51,638 nt of DNA from Clostridiaceae bacterium BRH_c20a (GTDB lineage Bacteria > Bacillota > Peptococcia > Peptococcales > BICA1-8). The notes beneath the pieces were generated by a model. It saw only the letters and a program-made list of their open reading frames with translations. It searched no databases and was not told where the DNA came from. Positions within the stretch are counted from its first letter, which is position 1. Each line of letters opens with the position of its first letter. Shown here in pieces: positions 1-23,049 of the stretch. The stretch covers positions 1 through 51,638 of the forward strand of contig LADT01000060.1 in assembly GCA_000961765.1 (NCBI GenBank). The letters run 5' to 3'. The position numbers and the translations under genes were made by a program.

Positions 1-504
1 ACTTAAGACCTTACCGATACACTTTGAAATTTCTTCTGCCCTTCGCATCTGTCATAGGCTTTTGACCTATACCAGCCACATCAACTCTGTGATGTGTCAC
101 CTAAGTTTTCCCCTCCAGACAATTACTTGCTTTCGTTGGCTTAGGTTTTATCACTACTACAGCTTCATCTGCATACTGCACTCTCACTTCACTTCTTGCT
201 TTCGCTTGTAAGTGAAACTTACAGCTTCGAGTACAGTACTTCCGAGGTTAAGTTACTCCGCCTGTTGTTAAAACGACCATCTAAACACATGTAGCTAAGC
301 TAATTTTAGGACGTTCCCGCTTTTTGGAGGGTTATCCACTACATATGCCAACACTGGTTCACTCTCGTTTCGTTCCAACAACCGCCATCAGCTTCCTTCA
401 GACCCTTTCGTCACCGAAAACGCCCTTGCCTACAGCTTATCTTCCCATTAGCTAGGTGATAGGTTTTCTTTCAAACCATCGGCTCGGCAACATGCCTCGC
501 AAAC
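1..504 (-). mobile_element. Group II intron, 5' part (runs off the left edge)
   Basis: Read on the minus strand, the DNA from 504 down to 1 resembles domain I and onward of a bacterial group II intron. It starts GTTTGCGAGGCATG, followed by the conserved block GGGCG...GTGACGAAAGGG, then TCTGAAGGAAGCTGA, then GGAACGAAACGAGAGTGAAC. No reverse-transcriptase ORF is visible here, so it would lie further left or be absent. The likely 5' boundary is the G at 504, directly after the T-run of an intrinsic terminator, which is the usual insertion preference of group IIC introns. The exact 5' nucleotide and the class are inferred; the 3' end is outside the window. Confidence 0.8.
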
Positions 505-529
505 AAAAAAACAGTCTTATGACAGACTG
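505..529 (-). terminator. Intrinsic terminator after the c-di-GMP aptamer
   Basis: On the minus strand CAGTCT-gtcata-AGACTG forms a 6-bp stem followed by six T (510 to 505). It lies about 25 bases past the aptamer and is the likely expression platform of the riboswitch. The group II intron begins at the next base. Confidence 0.75.
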
Positions 530-552
530 CCGGAAAAAAATTTTTAGTTTAA

Positions 553-632
553 ATCGGCAACCTGGCAATCATAGCTTACGCCTTAGACCCACGGCTTTGC
601 GTCCCATCTTTTCAAATGGTTTGCCTTTATCT
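553..632 (-). promoter_or_regulatory. Cyclic-di-GMP-I (GEMM-I) riboswitch
   Basis: Minus-strand sequence contains the GEMM-I signature in order: GGCAAACC (625-618), a short hairpin, GGGACGCAAAGCC, GTGGGTCTAAGG, a second hairpin, then CAGGTTGCCGA. GGCAA and TTGCC close the aptamer. It is followed by a terminator, so it looks like a transcriptional switch. The gene it would control lies beyond the group II intron and the left edge. GEMM-I variants can prefer cyclic GMP-AMP, which I cannot settle by eye. Confidence 0.88.
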
Positions 633-888
633 ATTTTTCTTTTTAAATCTCATTATTATTATATAAGAAAGATTGAGAAAGTTATGTCGAAATTTGTAGA
701 TAAATTAAATTTATTGTTTGCTTTAAGTATTTTGTTATAAATACCCGCTTCCCACATATTTTAATATAATACTATCTAATTCACAATTAACCAAACATAT
801 ATTCCCATACCAAACTAACTCAAATTATTTTTAATACATTCATAAAATTATAACTTTAATACTTTATAAAGCTAAAAGGGTGATTTAT

Positions 889-2445
889 TTGGGAAGCTAT
901 CTTATTCATCTTAGAAAGTCTAGGGCTGATATAGAAGCTGAAGCTCGGGGTGAAGGTGAGACTCTCGCTAAGCATGAAAAGTCTTTATTAAAGCTAGCTA
1001 AAGACCTAAAATTAAATATAGTTAAAATAAGAAAAGAGCTAATCTCCGGGGAGAGCTTAATGCACCGGCCGGAAATGTTGGAAACCCTTAGGGAGGTTGA
1101 GCAGGGTTTATATGATGGTGTGCTCTGTATGGATGTTGACCGCCTGGGGCGGGGTAACATGCAGGAGCAAGGTCTTATTCTGGAAACCTTCAAAAAGTCT
1201 AATACCAAGATTGTTACCCCCCGCAAAACCTATGACCTTAGTGATGAGTTTGATGAAGAATATAGTGAATTTGAAGCTTTTATGGCTAGGAAGGAATTAA
1301 AGATAATAACCAGGAGGCTGCAGCGTGGAAGAATCAGATCTGTTGAAGATGGAAATTATTTAGGTGCCCGCCCCCCCTATGGTTATTTAATTGAGGATAA
1401 CGGTCGCGAAAGATACCTTTTCCCCCATCCGGAACAATCGCTGGTTGTTAAGTTAGTTTTTGAATTGTACACACATAATGATCCGGAGAAAAGAATGGGT
1501 ACCAATAAAATTGCCAACGAACTAAACAGACTTGGGTATCGATCATATACCGGTAAAAGATGGAACGCATCTTCCGTTCTTAACATAATTAAAAATGCAG
1601 TTTATGCCGGCAGGATCCAGTGGAAAAAGAAAGAGGAAAAAAAATCATCAAGCCCTTATAAAACCAAAGATGTTCGGACCCGACCTGTTAAAGAATGGAT
1701 TGACGCCGAAGGCAAACATGACCCACTAGTATCCAGAGAGCTATATAAAAAAGCCCAAGAGAAACTTAAAGGCAAATACCATGTCCCCTACCAGCTACAA
1801 AATGGTATTACTAACCCATTAGCTGGGATAATTAGGTGTGGTGTCTGTGGCTCATCAATGGTTTATAGACCTTATGTGCATCAGCAGTATCCCCATATTA
1901 TGTGTTATAACCGGCAGCATTGTATTAATAAAAGCAGCCGCTTTGAATATGTTGAGCAAAAAATCATTGAAGGGCTTGAGGAGTGGCTCGAACAATACAA
2001 GAAAAAATGGGGGAAAAGCAAAAAAAATAAGGCTAAAGAAAATAATCTTATTAGTATTAAAGAAAAACAGCATCAGAATCTTGAAAAAGAACTGGCTGAA
2101 TTAGAAAAACAAAAAAACAGTTTGCATGATTTCTTAGAAAAAGGCATTTATGATACTGCAACATACCTTACCCGCTCTCGTAATATTTCTGAACGTATCG
2201 TAAATTGCCTCAGAGCCATTGAAAATACAAAAGATAGTATTTTATATGAAATGGATAGAGAGCAAGCTGCAAAGGAAATAATACCGAAGGTAGAGAATGT
2301 ATTAAAATTATATAACAGTTCTAAAGACCCGGCTCAAAAAAACAGCCTTCTAAAATCAGTTTTAGAAAAAGCTGTATATATTAAGGAGCAGCATAAGAAA
2401 AACGATGATTTTCTAATTAACCTCTATCCCAAGCTGCTCAAGTAA
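889..2445 (+). CDS. Large serine recombinase 1 (SprA-like) of element 1
   Basis: Site-specific recombinase of the large serine family. The N-terminal resolvase domain (about residues 3-150) has the catalytic serine in HLRKSRAD and the arginine regions HRPEM and DRLGRG. A recombinase domain follows (about 160-270), then a zinc ribbon (RCGVCGSSM ... MCYNRQHC, four Cys) and a Lys-rich coiled coil. The opening (LRKSRADIEAE...GEGETLAKH) recalls SprA of phage SPbeta, which excises during sporulation. I place the start at TTG 889 because AAAGGGTGAT (875-884) is a good ribosome site for it; GTG 880 lies inside that site. The gene ends about 35 bases before the sigK junction, so it is the likely integrase/excisionase of element 1. 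Confidence 0.9.
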   Translation: MGSYLIHLRKSRADIEAEARGEGETLAKHEKSLLKLAKDLKLNIVKIRKELISGESLMHRPEMLETLREVEQGLYDGVLCMDVDRLGRGNMQEQGLILETFKKSNTKIVTPRKTYDLSDEFDEEYSEFEAFMARKELKIITRRLQRGRIRSVEDGNYLGARPPYGYLIEDNGRERYLFPHPEQSLVVKLVFELYTHNDPEKRMGTNKIANELNRLGYRSYTGKRWNASSVLNIIKNAVYAGRIQWKKKEEKKSSSPYKTKDVRTRPVKEWIDAEGKHDPLVSRELYKKAQEKLKGKYHVPYQLQNGITNPLAGIIRCGVCGSSMVYRPYVHQQYPHIMCYNRQHCINKSSRFEYVEQKIIEGLEEWLEQYKKKWGKSKKNKAKENNLISIKEKQHQNLEKELAELEKQKNSLHDFLEKGIYDTATYLTRSRNISERIVNCLRAIENTKDSILYEMDREQAAKEIIPKVENVLKLYNSSKDPAQKNSLLKSVLEKAVYIKEQHKKNDDFLINLYPKLLK

Positions 2446-2475: not shown

Positions 2476-2491
2476 TAATTCATTACCCTCT
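2470..2491. other. Putative attachment junction of element 1 in sigK
   Basis: On the minus strand GAGGGTAAT-GA-ATTACCCCTC is a near-perfect palindrome (one extra C) with a two-base centre. Large serine recombinases commonly use such a layout, cutting at a central dinucleotide. One arm is sigK coding sequence (codons for K-E-G-N-E); the other belongs to the interrupting DNA. The crossover position (TC at 2480-2481 on the plus strand) is inferred from this symmetry and from the end of sigK homology. Confidence 0.5.
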
Positions 2492-2565
2492 TTATCTACA
2501 CCAATGGGGTCATATAAGGATACTTCCCCCCTATTTTTTTTAATTGCCCTTAAGTGCATAAGAAT
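2482..2565 (-). CDS. sigK: sigK, isolated middle segment
   Basis: Minus-strand translation across 2568-2482 gives [11 protein letters not shown], then NRGEV, then [14 protein letters not shown]. From memory, Bacillus sigma-K has [30 protein letters not shown] at this point, so about 28 codons from conserved region 2 onward are recognisable in the right frame. Both ends break abruptly. Upstream, the frame joins unrelated DNA at AGAAT (2561-2565); downstream, homology ends at 2482 and a stop follows at about 2459. It has no start, ribosome site or promoter, so it makes sense only as a piece to be spliced at DNA level to the 5' part at 16348-16697 and to a C-terminal part beyond the left edge. 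Confidence 0.88.
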
Positions 2566-2703: not shown

Positions 2704-2880
2704 ATGAAAGTGACTTTTATAGAAAGCGAGAACACCAAAAGTCTGCGTTCTAATGCATACAGGTACCTTTTAAAGAAATATCTGACAGAAAAGACTTATG
2801 ACACCAGAGGGGGAGAAAGAAATGACAATCGGAATATATTGCAGAGTATCAACGGAGGAGCAAGCAAGCAAAGGTTATAG
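2704..2880 (+). CDS. 58-aa basic protein overlapping the SpoIVCA-like gene
   Basis: Short ORF beginning MKVTFIESENTKSLRSNAY, rich in Lys and Arg, with a good ribosome site (GGGGAGGG at about 2687-2694). Its last 59 bases overlap the recombinase start in another frame, so the two are probably co-transcribed and translationally coupled. A weak sigma-E-like -10 (CATATTAT, 2671-2678) lies just upstream. I recognise no family. Size, charge and coupling to a developmental recombinase would fit a recombination directionality factor (SprB of SPbeta is of similar size), but this is inference. Confidence 0.5.
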   Translation: MKVTFIESENTKSLRSNAYRYLLKKYLTEKTYDTRGGERNDNRNILQSINGGASKQRL

Positions 2881-4333
2881 TATCTCTGACCAAATTAGAC
2901 AATGTAAAAAGAAAGCTGGAACTGAACAAGTTCTTGAATATATCGACGAGGGAGTAACTGGCGAGGTTCTCGAACGTCCCCAACTAATAAAATTGAGACA
3001 AGATTTAAAGGAAGGAATTATTTCGGAGGTAATATGTTACGACCCCGATAGACTTTCTAGAAAATTACAAAATCAATTAATACTGGCTGATGAAATCGAA
3101 CGTAAAGGTAAACTAACTTTTGTAAACGGTGATTATGCTAAAACTCCCGAAGGAATTTTGTTTTTCCAGCTCCGTGGAGCAATCGCAGAGTTTGAAAAGG
3201 CGAAAATTACTGAAAGAATGTCTAGAGGTCGCAGAGAAAAAGCTAGACAAGGTATAATTGTTAAAGACCCCAAGACTTATGGATATAAGTTCAATAAAAC
3301 TACTCGCCAACTTGAGGTCGACGAGGAAGAAGCTCAAATAGTTCGTTTAGTCTTTGATTTATTTACAGGAAAGACAAGTAAACAAATTGAGGGAATAAAT
3401 GGAATTGCTAAATATCTGACTTCTCTAGGAATACCAACAAAGAAAAAAGTCGGACAGTGGCATCGTCAGGTAGTTAGACAAATTCTTTTTAATGAAACTT
3501 ATACAGGAATATTTTATCAAAATCGTTGGAATTGTGAAGGCATGCTTTACAACAAGTTTAAGACCGAGGATAAAATTTCTATAAAACAACGTCCGAAAGA
3601 AGAGCAAATAAGTGTTCGTATCCCTGTTATTATCGAAGAAGGACAGTTTCAATACTGTCAATTATTATTAGAACAATCACGCCGACGCTGGGCAGGTACT
3701 AGCAAAAAAAACTATTTATTGAGTGGTCTTTTACGATGTGGTAACTGTGGAAATACACTTACAGGACACACAACAACGAACTGGGGAAAAACTGTATTCC
3801 AATATACCGACATAAAGAACACCGCAGGGGCAAAGCATAAAGGTTGCCGTACTACGTTACGCATGGAAAAACTTGACCAGTTAGTCTGGGAAACAGTTAT
3901 AAATTGGCTTAATAACCCAAACGCTATTCACGAGGAAAGCGTTAATAATCAAGGTTCGCTATTAGACTATGAGAAAGCAGAATTGGAAAGAATTACTCAA
4001 AGGCTTGATGCCCTTTCTAACGGACGTTCACGGCTATTAAACTTGTTAACCGAAGGTGATATTCTGGGGGAAATTGGCGAGAAGGAGTTGCGGGAAAAAT
4101 TAAAACAATTTAAAGATGAAGAAGAGCATTTAACTTCGGAATTAAGTAAACTCAATGAACGTTTAAATTCTCAACAAAATAATGAATTATCTCAAAACAT
4201 TATTCAAGAAGCTTCCGAGTACTATTTATCAAAACAAAATGAACTAACCTTCTATGATAAACAGCAACTTATAAGGTCAATAGTTAAAGAGATAATTGTT
4301 TTTAATGATGAAATTAAAATATTGAGTTTTTAA
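2822..4333 (+). CDS. spoIVCA: SpoIVCA-like sigK-element large serine recombinase
   Basis: Likely catalyses excision of element 2 to fuse sigK. It aligns along its length with B. subtilis SpoIVCA as I recall it: IYCRVSTEEQ (catalytic Ser10), DEGVTGEVLERP, EVICYDPDRLSRKL, GAIAEFEKAKI and WHRQVVRQIL. The order is resolvase domain (1-140), recombinase domain (150-235), zinc ribbon (about 300-345), coiled coil and C-terminal tail; 503 aa is family-typical. ATG 2822 is chosen because GAGGGGGAG (2806-2814) precedes it; upstream ATG 2798 lacks a site. One oddity: the zinc ribbon keeps C306, C309 and C342, but the third ligand position (YTC in SpoIVCA) reads YTD. It is transcribed away from the left attachment site. 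Confidence 0.92.
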   Translation: MTIGIYCRVSTEEQASKGYSISDQIRQCKKKAGTEQVLEYIDEGVTGEVLERPQLIKLRQDLKEGIISEVICYDPDRLSRKLQNQLILADEIERKGKLTFVNGDYAKTPEGILFFQLRGAIAEFEKAKITERMSRGRREKARQGIIVKDPKTYGYKFNKTTRQLEVDEEEAQIVRLVFDLFTGKTSKQIEGINGIAKYLTSLGIPTKKKVGQWHRQVVRQILFNETYTGIFYQNRWNCEGMLYNKFKTEDKISIKQRPKEEQISVRIPVIIEEGQFQYCQLLLEQSRRRWAGTSKKNYLLSGLLRCGNCGNTLTGHTTTNWGKTVFQYTDIKNTAGAKHKGCRTTLRMEKLDQLVWETVINWLNNPNAIHEESVNNQGSLLDYEKAELERITQRLDALSNGRSRLLNLLTEGDILGEIGEKELREKLKQFKDEEEHLTSELSKLNERLNSQQNNELSQNIIQEASEYYLSKQNELTFYDKQQLIRSIVKEIIVFNDEIKILSF

Positions 4334-10753: not shown

Positions 10754-11614
10754 TTAAGAGAAAAACGCCTTGTCGATTGCTTCCGTGAGTTCTTTCGCTG
10801 TTGGCTTCGAATACCGACGAGTAGTATTAATATCAGAATGACCTGCGAGTTCTGCGACCGTCGCAATATCAATCCCTTTGCGAACAAGGACGGAACAGTA
10901 TGAGTGGCGAAGCTGATGGGGATATGTTCCGAGCTTTTTTAATAAATGCTGAACGCTTCTGACGCTTATACGCTTTCTATAATTGGAGAGGAATAAAGCT
11001 GGGTTATTATCCTCTCGTTCTTCCAGATACTCTGTTAAATATAAACGAGCTTCACCTGGAAGTGGCACAGTTCGGGCAACGTTTCCTTTACCGTTGCGAA
11101 CCTTTAGCGAACCGCTCCTTGTACTTATGGTAATGTCCTCACGATTAAGAGCAACGAGTTCAGACACCCTCACGCCTGTATATAAAAGCGTATAGACGAT
11201 AGCGGTGTCACGTGGGTTATTCTTACGCTCAACCTTGCGAAGTAAATTATTAAGTTCGTTACACTCTAAACACTTCGGAGCGATATGTTGAACCTTGCGG
11301 ACTTCTGGTAATCTAATATTATCTGTAATTTCTAGACGCTTGATAAACTTCGCAAACACTCTAATAGTTGAAAATGTTTTATTCAGCGTCGTTGCTGTCC
11401 TTCCTTCTGCTTCCAGGTATGTAATATAACTCTGTATATCAAAACGAGTTAATGCGTTTAAGCTGCCGCCCTTATCGTTGAGGTAACGACTAAATGCTTC
11501 TATAACTTGACGGTATGTTTTCGCGGTCAATTCAGCCTTACCTTTGTCACGTTGAGCTTCGACGAACCTTTCGATAATATTAATTGGCGTGATTTCTGCG
11601 ACACTTTTCTTCAA
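10754..11614 (-). CDS. Tyrosine recombinase (XerC/D-like)
   Basis: 286 aa. An N-terminal SAM-like core-binding domain (about 10-95) is followed by a catalytic domain with all expected residues: R149 (TGVRVSEL), K176 (RNGKG), H233 and R236 (HQLRHSY), H259 (GHSDINTTRRYS) and Y268. It belongs to the phage or plasmid integrase / resolvase group. A plausible role is multimer resolution or an earlier integration of the plasmid-like module, since the flanking sigK junctions fit a serine recombinase instead. The dyad-rich region lies just downstream, and an operator-like dyad (11668-11687) just upstream. Confidence 0.9.
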   Translation of the reverse strand: MKKSVAEITPINIIERFVEAQRDKGKAELTAKTYRQVIEAFSRYLNDKGGSLNALTRFDIQSYITYLEAEGRTATTLNKTFSTIRVFAKFIKRLEITDNIRLPEVRKVQHIAPKCLECNELNNLLRKVERKNNPRDTAIVYTLLYTGVRVSELVALNREDITISTRSGSLKVRNGKGNVARTVPLPGEARLYLTEYLEEREDNNPALFLSNYRKRISVRSVQHLLKKLGTYPHQLRHSYCSVLVRKGIDIATVAELAGHSDINTTRRYSKPTAKELTEAIDKAFFS

Positions 11615-14071: not shown

Positions 14072-16117
14072 TTATGCCCGAAGTTTGAAGTAAATATCAT
14101 TCTGTAAATCATATTTTTCGGCAATCAATCTACAGTAATTTAAAATAGCATTAGCACTTAAATTGGTCTCAATAAAGATATTTTCTTTAAATTGAAATGG
14201 TGAGTTCATGCCTTCGTGATTGTTTGAAATGATACGCTTATCTCTACCTTCAAAATCTTTATGTTTAACAAAAGAATTAAAGAGTTGAGAATCTAATTCG
14301 TATAATTGATTGCATAGTTCCTTTAAGAAATCCTTCCATGAGTTAACACTATATTCTGTATCTAATATTATTATCTGTCTTGGTTTTTCGCCGGTTACAT
14401 TTACATTATCCATAATGTTATAGTCCGTATCATAATCTATACTATTTTCTTTAGAAGCATCATTATATTTTCCTGGCAAGTTCCACACTAAAACAGCTGT
14501 CTCAAATAAAATTTCTGCTCGTGTTTTAATAGTACTATCATTCCAAATATCATAATCTTTTAAATTTCTATTTAAAGATATATTTGAATTTAGTAGAATG
14601 TTCTTTTTTTCTGAAAACCTCTTATTTGATAATTCTGGATTATAACCTGATAATGTCAAATTTCCTATTGTATGTAAAAATTCATTATATATTTCTTCGT
14701 ATCTTTTTCCCAAATCTAATTGCCAATTTGGCGTTAATTTTTGCGGCATAATATGCTCGACTGTTATATCCTCATTAAGATTGATAACTTCTTTATTATT
14801 ATGTTTTTCCACTTGAACCAAAGTATATCGGTCTATTTTTGTTTTGTACAAATCCTTTGATATAAAGGCTCTTTTAAATTCCTCATTACGAGGGAACACA
14901 CCACTTCCAGATTTCGTAGCCAATATTTCTACCACCGCATCATAATAAGATTCATTAGTTAACATTAATTTTGCTAAATCATTCGCTAAATGTGCAAATA
15001 TTTTACTTAACGCATTAGTAGGGTACTCACAAATTATTCGTCTGTAAAGATAAGATAATATTATTCGTAGGATTTTCTCGGTATTATCTATTTCCATTTT
15101 TTTATAGGTAAAACAGTCTTCAAAAATATATATTAAGGCAGGATAAGTAACTGTTGACTTAATTTGTTGCAATTGCTGTAATAGATCATTAAGATTTTGA
15201 TACGGACTGTTGCAATTTATTAGCCATGAATAATATTCTGCATATGTAACTAATTCTTCTAATATACCCTCTTCATCATATTGCTTATTTTCCCTAACAT
15301 AATCTTTAAAAGTAATATACACTTTATCTTTAGTTGGAATAGAACCATTTTTCATCGTCAGATAATCACGGACGAAGTCTGAAATAATCGCATTAGGTAA
15401 GTAGTCCTCTATTTTTAACCAATAATTTTTATATAATCGCTTTTGTTCCTCATATTCATGATTCATTAAAAGAAAATTCCTTATTAAATCTGCCTGTGTT
15501 AGAGAGAGTCCAGTTGAATTTAAACTTTCAAATATTAGTTGAGGATTTTCTGATTTTTTATCTTTATCTAACGCAATATAAACTATCTCAACATTATTTA
15601 GAGCATTATAAAGAGTTTTAGGAGAACAGTTAGAGTTTGCAATTAATTGCCTAAATAAATAATAGTTTCTAATAATATTTGAGTTATTGGGAGTAGCATT
15701 GTTTTGCATAACATTATCATAAGCTCGCATATCACTTTCAATAGGTTTTAGTTTTATTCGAAGTGTTTCAGGTGCTCTTTTGTTTATTAAATATGTCTCA
15801 AATATATCTTCTTTAAGGTCAAAATCCTCTAATAGGTCATGTAACGCCTTTATTAAGAGCATAATACTTGTTATCCTCTGTTGACCATCAATAACTATAA
15901 ATTCCATAAAATTTGGTTGTGCTGAACCAACTACATAAACTATTGTTCCTAAAAAATGTTGTGCTTCGAAATTTTTGGAAGCTATTTGCTCAATGTCAAA
16001 AAATAGCCTACGACAATGTTCTTCTTTCCAGTCATAGTTTCTCTGATATACTGGTATATTAAAAGTCCTCTTACTTGAGCCGATGAACTCTAACAATTTT
16101 ATTTTATTAGCTTCCAC
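14072..16117 (-). CDS. DUF262/DUF1524 (GmrSD-type) nuclease, likely phage defence
   Basis: 681 aa. The N-terminal DUF262 domain has the motifs IPVYQRNYDW (21-30) and IDGQQR (76-81), the NTP-sensing part in GmrS/BrxU-type enzymes. A DUF1524 HNH-type nuclease lies in the middle (VEHIMPQ at about 454, then HTIGNLTL and a conserved N...F..K). An extra domain of about 110 residues follows (RQIIILDTEYSVNSWKDFLK ... FIETNLSA), probably for substrate recognition. In the GmrSD family these proteins cut modified phage DNA. The start is GTG 16117 behind GAGGGGGAT. It is the right-most gene of the element, next to the sigK junction. Confidence 0.85.
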   Translation of the reverse strand: MEANKIKLLEFIGSSKRTFNIPVYQRNYDWKEEHCRRLFFDIEQIASKNFEAQHFLGTIVYVVGSAQPNFMEFIVIDGQQRITSIMLLIKALHDLLEDFDLKEDIFETYLINKRAPETLRIKLKPIESDMRAYDNVMQNNATPNNSNIIRNYYLFRQLIANSNCSPKTLYNALNNVEIVYIALDKDKKSENPQLIFESLNSTGLSLTQADLIRNFLLMNHEYEEQKRLYKNYWLKIEDYLPNAIISDFVRDYLTMKNGSIPTKDKVYITFKDYVRENKQYDEEGILEELVTYAEYYSWLINCNSPYQNLNDLLQQLQQIKSTVTYPALIYIFEDCFTYKKMEIDNTEKILRIILSYLYRRIICEYPTNALSKIFAHLANDLAKLMLTNESYYDAVVEILATKSGSGVFPRNEEFKRAFISKDLYKTKIDRYTLVQVEKHNNKEVINLNEDITVEHIMPQKLTPNWQLDLGKRYEEIYNEFLHTIGNLTLSGYNPELSNKRFSEKKNILLNSNISLNRNLKDYDIWNDSTIKTRAEILFETAVLVWNLPGKYNDASKENSIDYDTDYNIMDNVNVTGEKPRQIIILDTEYSVNSWKDFLKELCNQLYELDSQLFNSFVKHKDFEGRDKRIISNNHEGMNSPFQFKENIFIETNLSANAILNYCRLIAEKYDLQNDIYFKLRA

Positions 16118-16295: not shown

Positions 16296-16697
16296 TCAAT
16301 TTGGACTAATCTTAAATACTCCTTGACATAGCACCCCTAATGACATTAGAATATCATTTTCAATACACCGCGCAGCATAGGTTGCTAATTTAGTTCCTTT
16401 GTCGGGGTCAAAGGTATTAATTCCCTTAATGAGACCAATTGTACCTATAGAAATTAAGTCATCTGTGTCTTCATTAGTCCCATCAAATTTTTTTGTAATA
16501 TGGGCAACTAATCGCAAATTATGCTTAATTAAAATGCTTCGTGCTTCTTCATCGCCATTACGGAAAAGACCAAGATATTTTGTTTCATCTTCTTCTGTTA
16601 ACGGTTGAGGAAAAGCGTTGTTGGTGATGTAGGAGATAAATAGAAGGATGCTTCGCACTAAGGTGGTAGTTAAAGCGGCGAGACTTTCAATTGACAT
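16296..16697 (-). CDS. sigK: sigK, 5' part (pro-sigma-K N-terminus)
   Basis: Mother-cell sigma factor, interrupted. The first 30 residues are the hydrophobic pro-sequence ([20 protein letters not shown] ... NNAFPQPL). Region 2 follows: [27 protein letters not shown] and [19 protein letters not shown]. Homology stops at 16348; the last codons ([15 protein letters not shown]) are element sequence, so as it stands it encodes a non-functional fragment of about 133 aa. The start is ATG 16697 behind GGAGGTGGG; GTG 16709 overlaps that site. Joining at AGAAT restores the frame with the segment at 2482-2565. Having a pro-sequence implies control by proteolysis (SpoIVFB-like) as well as by DNA excision. 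Confidence 0.93.
16339..16358. other. Right attachment site of the skin-like element
   Basis: Plus strand AATGACATT-AG-AATATCATT is palindromic at eight of nine arm positions, with a central AG dinucleotide at 16348-16349. The AGAAT core is shared with the left site. The right arm is sigK coding sequence (codons for E-N-D-I), the left arm is element. Confidence 0.75.
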
Positions 16698-16733
16698 AAA
16701 AAAACCCACCTCCGATAAGATAACTCATTTTTA

Positions 16734-21623: not shown

Positions 21624-21830
21624 CTATAAAAAAACAATTTTTTTTGGAAAGTTGTAAAGTATACCTAATACATCAATCTTAGTTTCCGGAGTAACTGTTA
21701 AAGCAATTAAACCTTCCTGCCTATTTAAGGTAGTAACAACTGCCAAGCCATCATAGCCTTCAAATATTTTATTTATATATGAAATGTCTCGGGGTTCGAC
21801 CTGAATAAGTATTTTTAAAGGATTATTCAT
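21624..21830 (-). CDS. DUF4911-like small protein
   Basis: 68 aa, beginning MNNPLKILIQVEPRDISYIN, with a compact alpha/beta pattern. Its start overlaps the end of the U32 gene by eight bases, so it is translated with it. It resembles DUF4911 proteins found in the same place in other Clostridia; the function is unknown but a link to tRNA modification is suggested by the operon. Confidence 0.65.
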   Translation of the reverse strand: MNNPLKILIQVEPRDISYINKIFEGYDGLAVVTTLNRQEGLIALTVTPETKIDVLGILYNFPKKIVFL

Positions 21831-23049
21831 CTATTTTTTCCCTTCTTAATAAATCATAGGGGAAAACTCTTTCTTTGACAGGTATTTTAACAATTTGTCT
21901 AGGGTGGGGTGCGGCTTCTATTTGATTGCCCTCAGAATCAACAATTTCTTCTATTATTTGACTAAAATCATTATCCTGGGGTCCAAAAAATTCAACCTTA
22001 TCCCTTATCTGAAAGCGGTTTCTTTGTTCAATAGTTGCTATTTGGCTTTTTTCATCATAATCCAAAACAACCCCAATAAAATCATAGGGCCTGATATAGC
22101 TGGAACTAGTTAAAGTGGCAGCACTATCCCCTGGCTTTCCGAAATAAAATCCAGTTGTATAGGGTCTATGACTTACTTTTTCTAGTTCGTCACGCCAATA
22201 ATTAAAATCAAGCTTTTCATGACCCGGTCTTAAATAATAATCAATAACTCTTCGATAAGCTCTAATTACCGTTGCTGAATAATATAAACTTTTCATGCGC
22301 CCTTCAATTTTAAAGCTATCAATACCAGCATCAACCAATAATTCCATATTTTCAAATAAACAAAGGTCTTGGGAATTAAAAACATATGTACCCCGATCAT
22401 CTTCAATTACAGGGTAATACTCACCCGGTCTTTTTTCTTCTACTAAATTATAATTCCATCGGCAGGCTTGCGCACATTCACCCCGGTTGGCATCCCTGTC
22501 AGCCATATAGTTGCTTAGAAGGCAGCGACCAGAGTAAGAAATACACATAGCACCATGAATAAAAGCTTCTATTTCCACAGGAACTCTTTTTTTAATATCT
22601 TTAATTTCTTCTAAAGACAACTCGCGAGCTAAAACTATCCGCTCAATCCCCTGTTCATACCAGAATTGGGCACCCGCCCAATTAACATTATTAGCCTGTG
22701 TACTTAGATGTAAAGGCATAAGAGGTACAATTTCTTTAGCAATTTTTATTACACCAGGATCAGCACAAATAATAGCATCAACGCCTATTTTTTGCAGACT
22801 ATCTAAATAGTCAGGCAAGTCTTTTAAATCTTCATTATGAGGAAAGATATTAACAGTTATGTATACTTTTACTCCATGTTTATGGGCAATTTTAACACCC
22901 TCTTTTATTTCTTCCAGGCCAAAATTGCCGGCAAATGCCCTTAACCCAAAATTTTTACCGCCCAGATATACGGCATCAGCTCCATATATACAGGCAAATT
23001 TTAATTTTTCAAGATTTCCGGCAGGAGCTAATAACTCCGTTTTTTTCAT
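21823..23049 (-). CDS. U32 peptidase family protein, TrhP-like tRNA hydroxylase
   Basis: 408 aa. ELLAPAGNLEKLKFACIYGADAVYLGG at the N-terminus, HLSTQANNVN, and the Cys cluster EAFIHGAMCISYSGRCLLSNY ... GECAQACRW are typical of the U32 family. TrhP-type members hydroxylate U34 of tRNA using prephenate. The next gene is the matching methyltransferase (TrmR-like), which strengthens this reading. The start is ATG 23049 behind AAAGGGTGAT. It overlaps the DUF4911 gene. Confidence 0.85.
   Translation of the reverse strand: MKKTELLAPAGNLEKLKFACIYGADAVYLGGKNFGLRAFAGNFGLEEIKEGVKIAHKHGVKVYITVNIFPHNEDLKDLPDYLDSLQKIGVDAIICADPGVIKIAKEIVPLMPLHLSTQANNVNWAGAQFWYEQGIERIVLARELSLEEIKDIKKRVPVEIEAFIHGAMCISYSGRCLLSNYMADRDANRGECAQACRWNYNLVEEKRPGEYYPVIEDDRGTYVFNSQDLCLFENMELLVDAGIDSFKIEGRMKSLYYSATVIRAYRRVIDYYLRPGHEKLDFNYWRDELEKVSHRPYTTGFYFGKPGDSAATLTSSSYIRPYDFIGVVLDYDEKSQIATIEQRNRFQIRDKVEFFGPQDNDFSQIIEEIVDSEGNQIEAAPHPRQIVKIPVKERVFPYDLLRREKIDE

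Follow-up and report, generated by a model that had tools for sequence, protein, structure and literature searches.

A group IIC-like intron abutting the terminator of a c-di-GMP-I riboswitch in a split sigK gene

When the 5' end of a self-splicing intron directly follows a riboswitch, does the ligand govern the ribozyme, or does the neighborhood reflect the insertion habit of the intron? This question is raised by one end of a contig from Clostridiaceae bacterium BRH_c20a (genome G000; 4.5 Mb, 92 contigs). The window analyzed here is the whole of that contig, C29, with a length of 51,638 nucleotides, and its base 1 is the contig end. A previous reading made from the sequence alone had placed, on the minus strand, an aptamer for c-di-GMP, followed by a terminator and then the 5' end of a group II intron, and it was right in this respect. 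The c-di-GMP-I aptamer, at 635-553 (-), matched the Rfam covariance model RF01051 over its full length (model positions 1-87, 83.6 bits with a gathering score of 35, E value of 4e-15) and is one of 13 c-di-GMP-I riboswitches in this genome. The intrinsic terminator of the riboswitch, at 505-531 (-), consists of a stem at 531-510 (GGCAGUCU/AGACUGUU) and a T-run of seven residues at 511-505, where the sequence-only reading had counted six. A terminator search recovered 531-510 (-), with T residues onward to 505, as the sole terminator-like site in the region 480-900, and folding of the terminator alone gave -10.1 kcal/mol (z = -3.9 versus shuffled sequences). Promoter-like sites upstream of the riboswitch leader were found at chance level only. 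The closest paralogue of this leader, on contig C76 (G000:C76:55893-55811, L102), comprises a c-di-GMP-I riboswitch, a terminator in the corresponding place (GGCAGTCT/AGACTGCC), and a Spo0E-like ORF of 53 codons, without any intron.

The intron starts at G504 (-), directly after the T-run. Bases 1-504 (-) correspond to the 5' quarter of a group IIC-like intron of ~2.08 kb, cut by the contig end; this assignment relies on a covariance-model match, on a 5' end shared with other introns, and on a second copy in the genome. The check by covariance models was positive for the intron as it was for the aptamer, with group-II-D1D4-3 (RF02001), which describes the domain I end of group II catalytic RNA, matching 420-252 (-) with 63.3 bits. 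The second copy, 97% identical, is located at the end of contig C71 (G000:C71:80066-80569), and C29 and C71 both break ~500-510 nt into the repeated intron. We also looked upstream of the C71 copy for a degenerate c-di-GMP aptamer; RF01051 gave no match there, even at an E value of 10. C29 stops at base 1 within the intron, the 3' half of which is absent from the window, and no contig spans the intron here; judging from its homologues, the two intron ends should be ~2,084 nt apart. The sequence-only reading depended on a group II domain V/VI lying beyond the contig end. In substance, a domain of this kind exists in the genome: RF00029 (domain V/VI) identified tails of the same intron family, 412 to 507 nt long, on contigs C74, C90, C46, and C8, none of them joined by sequence to the C29 copy. 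Counting against our model, the tally of intron ends in the assembly is unbalanced (two 5' ends versus four or five 3' ends), and we found no reverse transcriptase (RT) gene of this family in the assembly, presumably because it was lost with the collapsed repeat. More generally, at least three multicopy families of group II introns break this assembly (at C74, C90, C46, C8, C20, C28, C41, C50, C62, C72, C1, C24, and C53), and the tails of one family, on C20, C28, C41, and C62, are followed by ORF starts that by eye resemble REP-associated transposases.

The intron is a member of a terminator-homing, IIC-like family. An exact match to its first 24 bases, GTTTGCGAGGCATGTTGCCGAGCC, is present in 33 further stretches of bacterial genome sequence, from hosts including Anaerovirgula, Maledivibacter, Geosporobacter, and Tepidibacter. 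In these 33 stretches, the upstream sequences are unrelated to each other right up to the intron start and mostly end with a hairpin and a T-run. Defining a terminator by a dG of -6 or below together with four or more T among the last 8 bases, we detected one at 26 of 33 clean insertion sites (31 of the 33 outside stretches plus two sites in this genome), compared with 118 of 1973 random windows (6%; odds ratio of 58, p = 5e-25). This enrichment supports the earlier proposal that terminator homing accounts for the placement of the intron, and insertion of group IIC introns after intrinsic terminators is regarded as established (Robart 2007, as cited in PMC4424553). Complete copies of the family measure 2,084 to 2,086 nt (others, 1,277 and 2,727 nt) and have the 3' end CTACTCGAT. 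The protein encoded by two homologous copies (L059 and L083) contains only the Pfam domains RVT_1 and GIIM. Among solved chains, the intron-encoded protein (IEP) of the homologues is closest to 7uim, a group II intron RT/maturase, and to 6ar1, the GsI-IIC RT. The family resembles known IIC introns in its insertion just after a hairpin and T-run and in an IEP that is closest to solved IIC RTs and likewise lacks an endonuclease domain. It differs from them in its 5' end, GUUUGCG instead of the GUGYG usual for group IIC introns, and, at the present locus, in that the terminator is the expression platform of a riboswitch.

These features allowed us to evaluate whether the aptamer directly controls group II splicing, in the manner of the c-di-GMP-II aptamer and the group I intron of C. 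difficile. Such an allosteric ribozyme would be compatible with the position of the aptamer, on the same strand and with 48 nt separating it from the 5' splice site downstream, but a complete terminator separates the two RNAs, and this terminator belongs to the riboswitch, since the C76 leader has one without an intron. Furthermore, the 33 other intron starts sit behind other hairpins, and Rfam models at gathering scores revealed no riboswitch near them. Pattern searches across 398 genomes of the phylum turned up no further riboswitch-intron case with the exact start of this intron, other matches being at chance level, and the pattern GCAAA-N80-110-intron start exceeded chance at this site only. 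Direct allosteric control is, in our judgment, hardly credible. In the C. difficile allosteric ribozyme, the ligand sets the choice of splice site (PMC9481103). In both systems, a self-splicing intron follows a c-di-GMP aptamer, but no terminator lies between them in C. difficile, whereas a complete one intervenes here, and the parallel drawn by the sequence-only reading is not supported. In a natural allosteric ribozyme of the C. difficile type, no terminator parts the aptamer from the ribozyme, and the aptamer can pair with the splice-site region; here, the terminator is intact. A closer precedent was described by Sherlock and Breaker, namely a SAM-I aptamer, an uninterrupted terminator, and a group IIC intron, which they judged to be probably a false positive with respect to allosteric control (PMC9481103). 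The present locus is the c-di-GMP-I equivalent of that case: a riboswitch, an uninterrupted terminator, and a IIC intron again follow each other on one strand, with the differences that the ligand class is c-di-GMP-I, that the downstream gene is Spo0E-like, and that the whole lies inside a sigK-intervening element. It represents the second reported type of false friend among riboswitch-ribozyme pairs. An intron that homes to terminators will occasionally end up behind a riboswitch and look like part of an allosteric ribozyme, a point of importance to those searching for such ribozymes.

The evidence that the first base of contig C65 is the 3' exon of the insertion is strong but indirect. C65 starts with TATTTTTAAATTTAATTTATGGAGGGAGTAAGTG, followed by a Spo0E-like ORF of 50 codons whose N terminus is nearly the same as that of the C76 ORF. 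When the window leader and C65 were aligned to C76, there was no gap across the junction, and the distance from the terminator stem to ATGGAGG was 25 nt in both. In addition, C29 and C65 can be paired as two flanks because each carries pieces of a split sigK gene. The Spo0E-like ORF of C65 provides the gene in the minus direction that the sequence-only reading anticipated beyond the intron. The contigs with intron tails were also considered as the far side, namely C74 (DUF2232/GdpP operon), C90 (DUF2179), C46 (kamA region), and C8 (mgsA/phoB), but they have no sequence link to the window and, with gene names assigned by eye, are unlike the targets of c-di-GMP-I riboswitches in relatives; C65 fits in their place. 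Unlike these four contigs, C65 lacks an intron tail and opens directly at the exon boundary, which counts against our model and would be expected if the intron end had been wrongly joined to a leader that really continues straight into C65. We consider such an assembly artifact very unlikely, since both contigs break at one base, as a repeat would cause, the insertion point is typical of the intron family, and C71 is broken likewise ~510 nt into the intron.

The ORFs of C65 and C76 are called Spo0E-like with reserve, by motif alone. Their proteins scored 12.2 and 20.4 bits, respectively, with the Pfam model PF09388, below its cutoff of 23, and a search of solved structures with the Spo0E-like protein gave no match. 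They have in common S..LD.LI..Y, which we take to be the motif of Spo0E-like proteins. The intron-free C76 unit suggests c-di-GMP control of a putative Spo0A phosphatase.

How the riboswitch may operate can be predicted from folding. The region of the P1 3' strand is predicted to form an antiterminator by pairing with the terminator 5' arm, at calculated energies of -11.3 kcal/mol for the window and -11.2 kcal/mol for C76, and the pairing differs between the two leaders by one compensatory change, from G-C to A-U (pair read by eye). In the window, the alternative stem reached -12.4 kcal/mol versus -10.1 kcal/mol for the terminator. Upon binding of c-di-GMP, P1 would hold the strand that otherwise pairs with the terminator 5' arm, and transcription would stop before the intron, as in an OFF switch. 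In the absence of ligand, RNA polymerase would read through into the intron and then into the Spo0E-like ORF. As the intron lies 3' of the T-run, its transcription from the leader promoter requires read-through of the riboswitch terminator, and this part of the earlier claim that c-di-GMP gates the ribozyme stands. The uninterrupted terminator between aptamer and ribozyme implies that control, if any, is exerted over transcription only, and we saw no sign of control over splicing. If the intron is spliced, the leader would be restored, and we do not expect this step to respond to c-di-GMP. Besides, the Shine-Dalgarno sequence and the start codon of the downstream ORF both lie past the intron, so its translation probably need not await splicing.

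The coupling might have been selected, with c-di-GMP restricting intron mobility or expression of the Spo0E-like protein to conditions of low c-di-GMP. The order and orientation of the parts are compatible with such a recruited switch, and in the same element another c-di-GMP-I riboswitch accompanies HD and CBS-GGDEF genes. Nevertheless, this arrangement was seen once, the 97% identity to the C71 copy suggests that the intron inserted recently, and the unit of riboswitch, terminator, and Spo0E-like gene exists intron-free in C76, so we view recruitment as unlikely. IIC introns of this kind sit behind terminators anyway, and their coupling with a riboswitch terminator is a by-product. For the locus as a whole, it is highly probable that a mobile IIC-like intron entered the leader of a small Spo0E-like gene inside the second of two sigK elements, directly behind the T-run of a c-di-GMP-I riboswitch whose terminator is intact, and that the coupling resulted from the insertion habit of the intron.

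The sigK gene is split into three pieces. The N-terminal piece, at 16344-16709 (-), covers residues 1 to ~120, with a start codon assumed at 16709, and ends in a core A site (ATTCTAATG, 16352-16344). A middle piece of ~30 residues, at 2479-2565 (-), lies between the two elements and is bounded by core A (ATTCTTATG, 2565-2557) and core B (GGTAATGAA, 2487-2479). The C-terminal piece is located on C65 (G000:C65:3771-4055 (+)), where it is followed by genes in the same order as in relatives. Joining the three pieces at the cores ATTCT(A/T)ATG and GGTAATGAA gives an uninterrupted reading frame for 239 residues, which share 89% identity with the intact SigK of a relative (G004). Each sigK junction has a large serine recombinase alongside. 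That of element B, at 880-2445 (+), contains the Pfam domains Resolvase, Recombinase, and Zn_ribbon and is 64% identical to the recombinase beside the split sigK of another genome, G007; that of element A, at 2798-4333 (+), was identified by Pfam and adjoins the core A site. Element A measures 13,787 bp and is wholly within the window. Element B would extend from ~2,487 down to base 1 of the window, through the intron, and on C65 up to ~3,771, with the riboswitch, the intron, and the Spo0E-like ORF inside. A search for prophage attachment repeats, matching the region 500-900 to the rest of the window, gave none above chance, and the split sigK explains the recombinases instead.

Elsewhere in the window, a gene for a GmrSD type IV restriction protein (14072-16117) adjoins the N-terminal sigK piece within element A, and a tyrosine recombinase is encoded at 10754-11614. 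A T-box leader (45280-45076) upstream of a hisS-like gene and a 6S RNA (41869-41693) after an aspS-like gene, with the gene names assigned by eye, are ordinary chromosomal features.

Two skin-like elements thus interrupt sigK, possibly as a double skin element. Among 46 genomes of the class, sigK is cut near residue 140-149, the position of element B, in G003, G007, G033, G037, and G044, and only the present genome is also cut near residue 123. In the open-access literature that we searched, we found no description of a sigK gene carrying two elements. In B. subtilis and C. difficile, sigK is interrupted at different places (PMC5025042, PMC6957869). As with those skin elements, a large serine recombinase element lies in sigK and its excision would restore the frame, but here there are two elements at two sites of one gene, and element B is small and carries c-di-GMP genes. 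Other arrangements occur in the class: G037 has one N-terminal piece, two distant C-terminal pieces, and an extra full-length sigK-like gene (C1:566583, 678755, 728951, and 1143078), and in G033 the N- and C-terminal pieces are ~3.3 kb apart on opposite strands (C96:17926-18351 (-) and 21672-21947 (+)), as would follow from an inversion within the element.

The far end of element B (G000:C65:1-3771, L140) contains the Spo0E-like ORF, a riboswitch, an HD gene, an ORF of unknown function, and a CBS-GGDEF gene, ahead of the C-terminal sigK piece. This second c-di-GMP-I riboswitch of the element, at C65:1515-1599, precedes the HD, unknown, and CBS-GGDEF genes. The unknown ORF and the CBS-GGDEF gene are also side by side on the G003 and G037 chromosomes, with an HD gene before them in G037. 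A speculative reading, to which we give rather little weight, is that the second sigK element carries a c-di-GMP-responsive sporulation cassette, in which one riboswitch would repress the intron and a Spo0E-like Spo0A phosphatase while the other would control the HD/CBS-GGDEF operon; the element would then bias entry into sporulation in response to c-di-GMP and have to be excised, together with its sister element, for sporulation to be completed.

The pairing of riboswitch and intron is a known kind of accident, and the sigK setting is the more unusual feature and the one that matters more. With sigK cut twice, two excisions would be needed before late sporulation, and since element B combines c-di-GMP signaling genes with a Spo0E-like ORF, a link between c-di-GMP and the decision to sporulate is directly testable.
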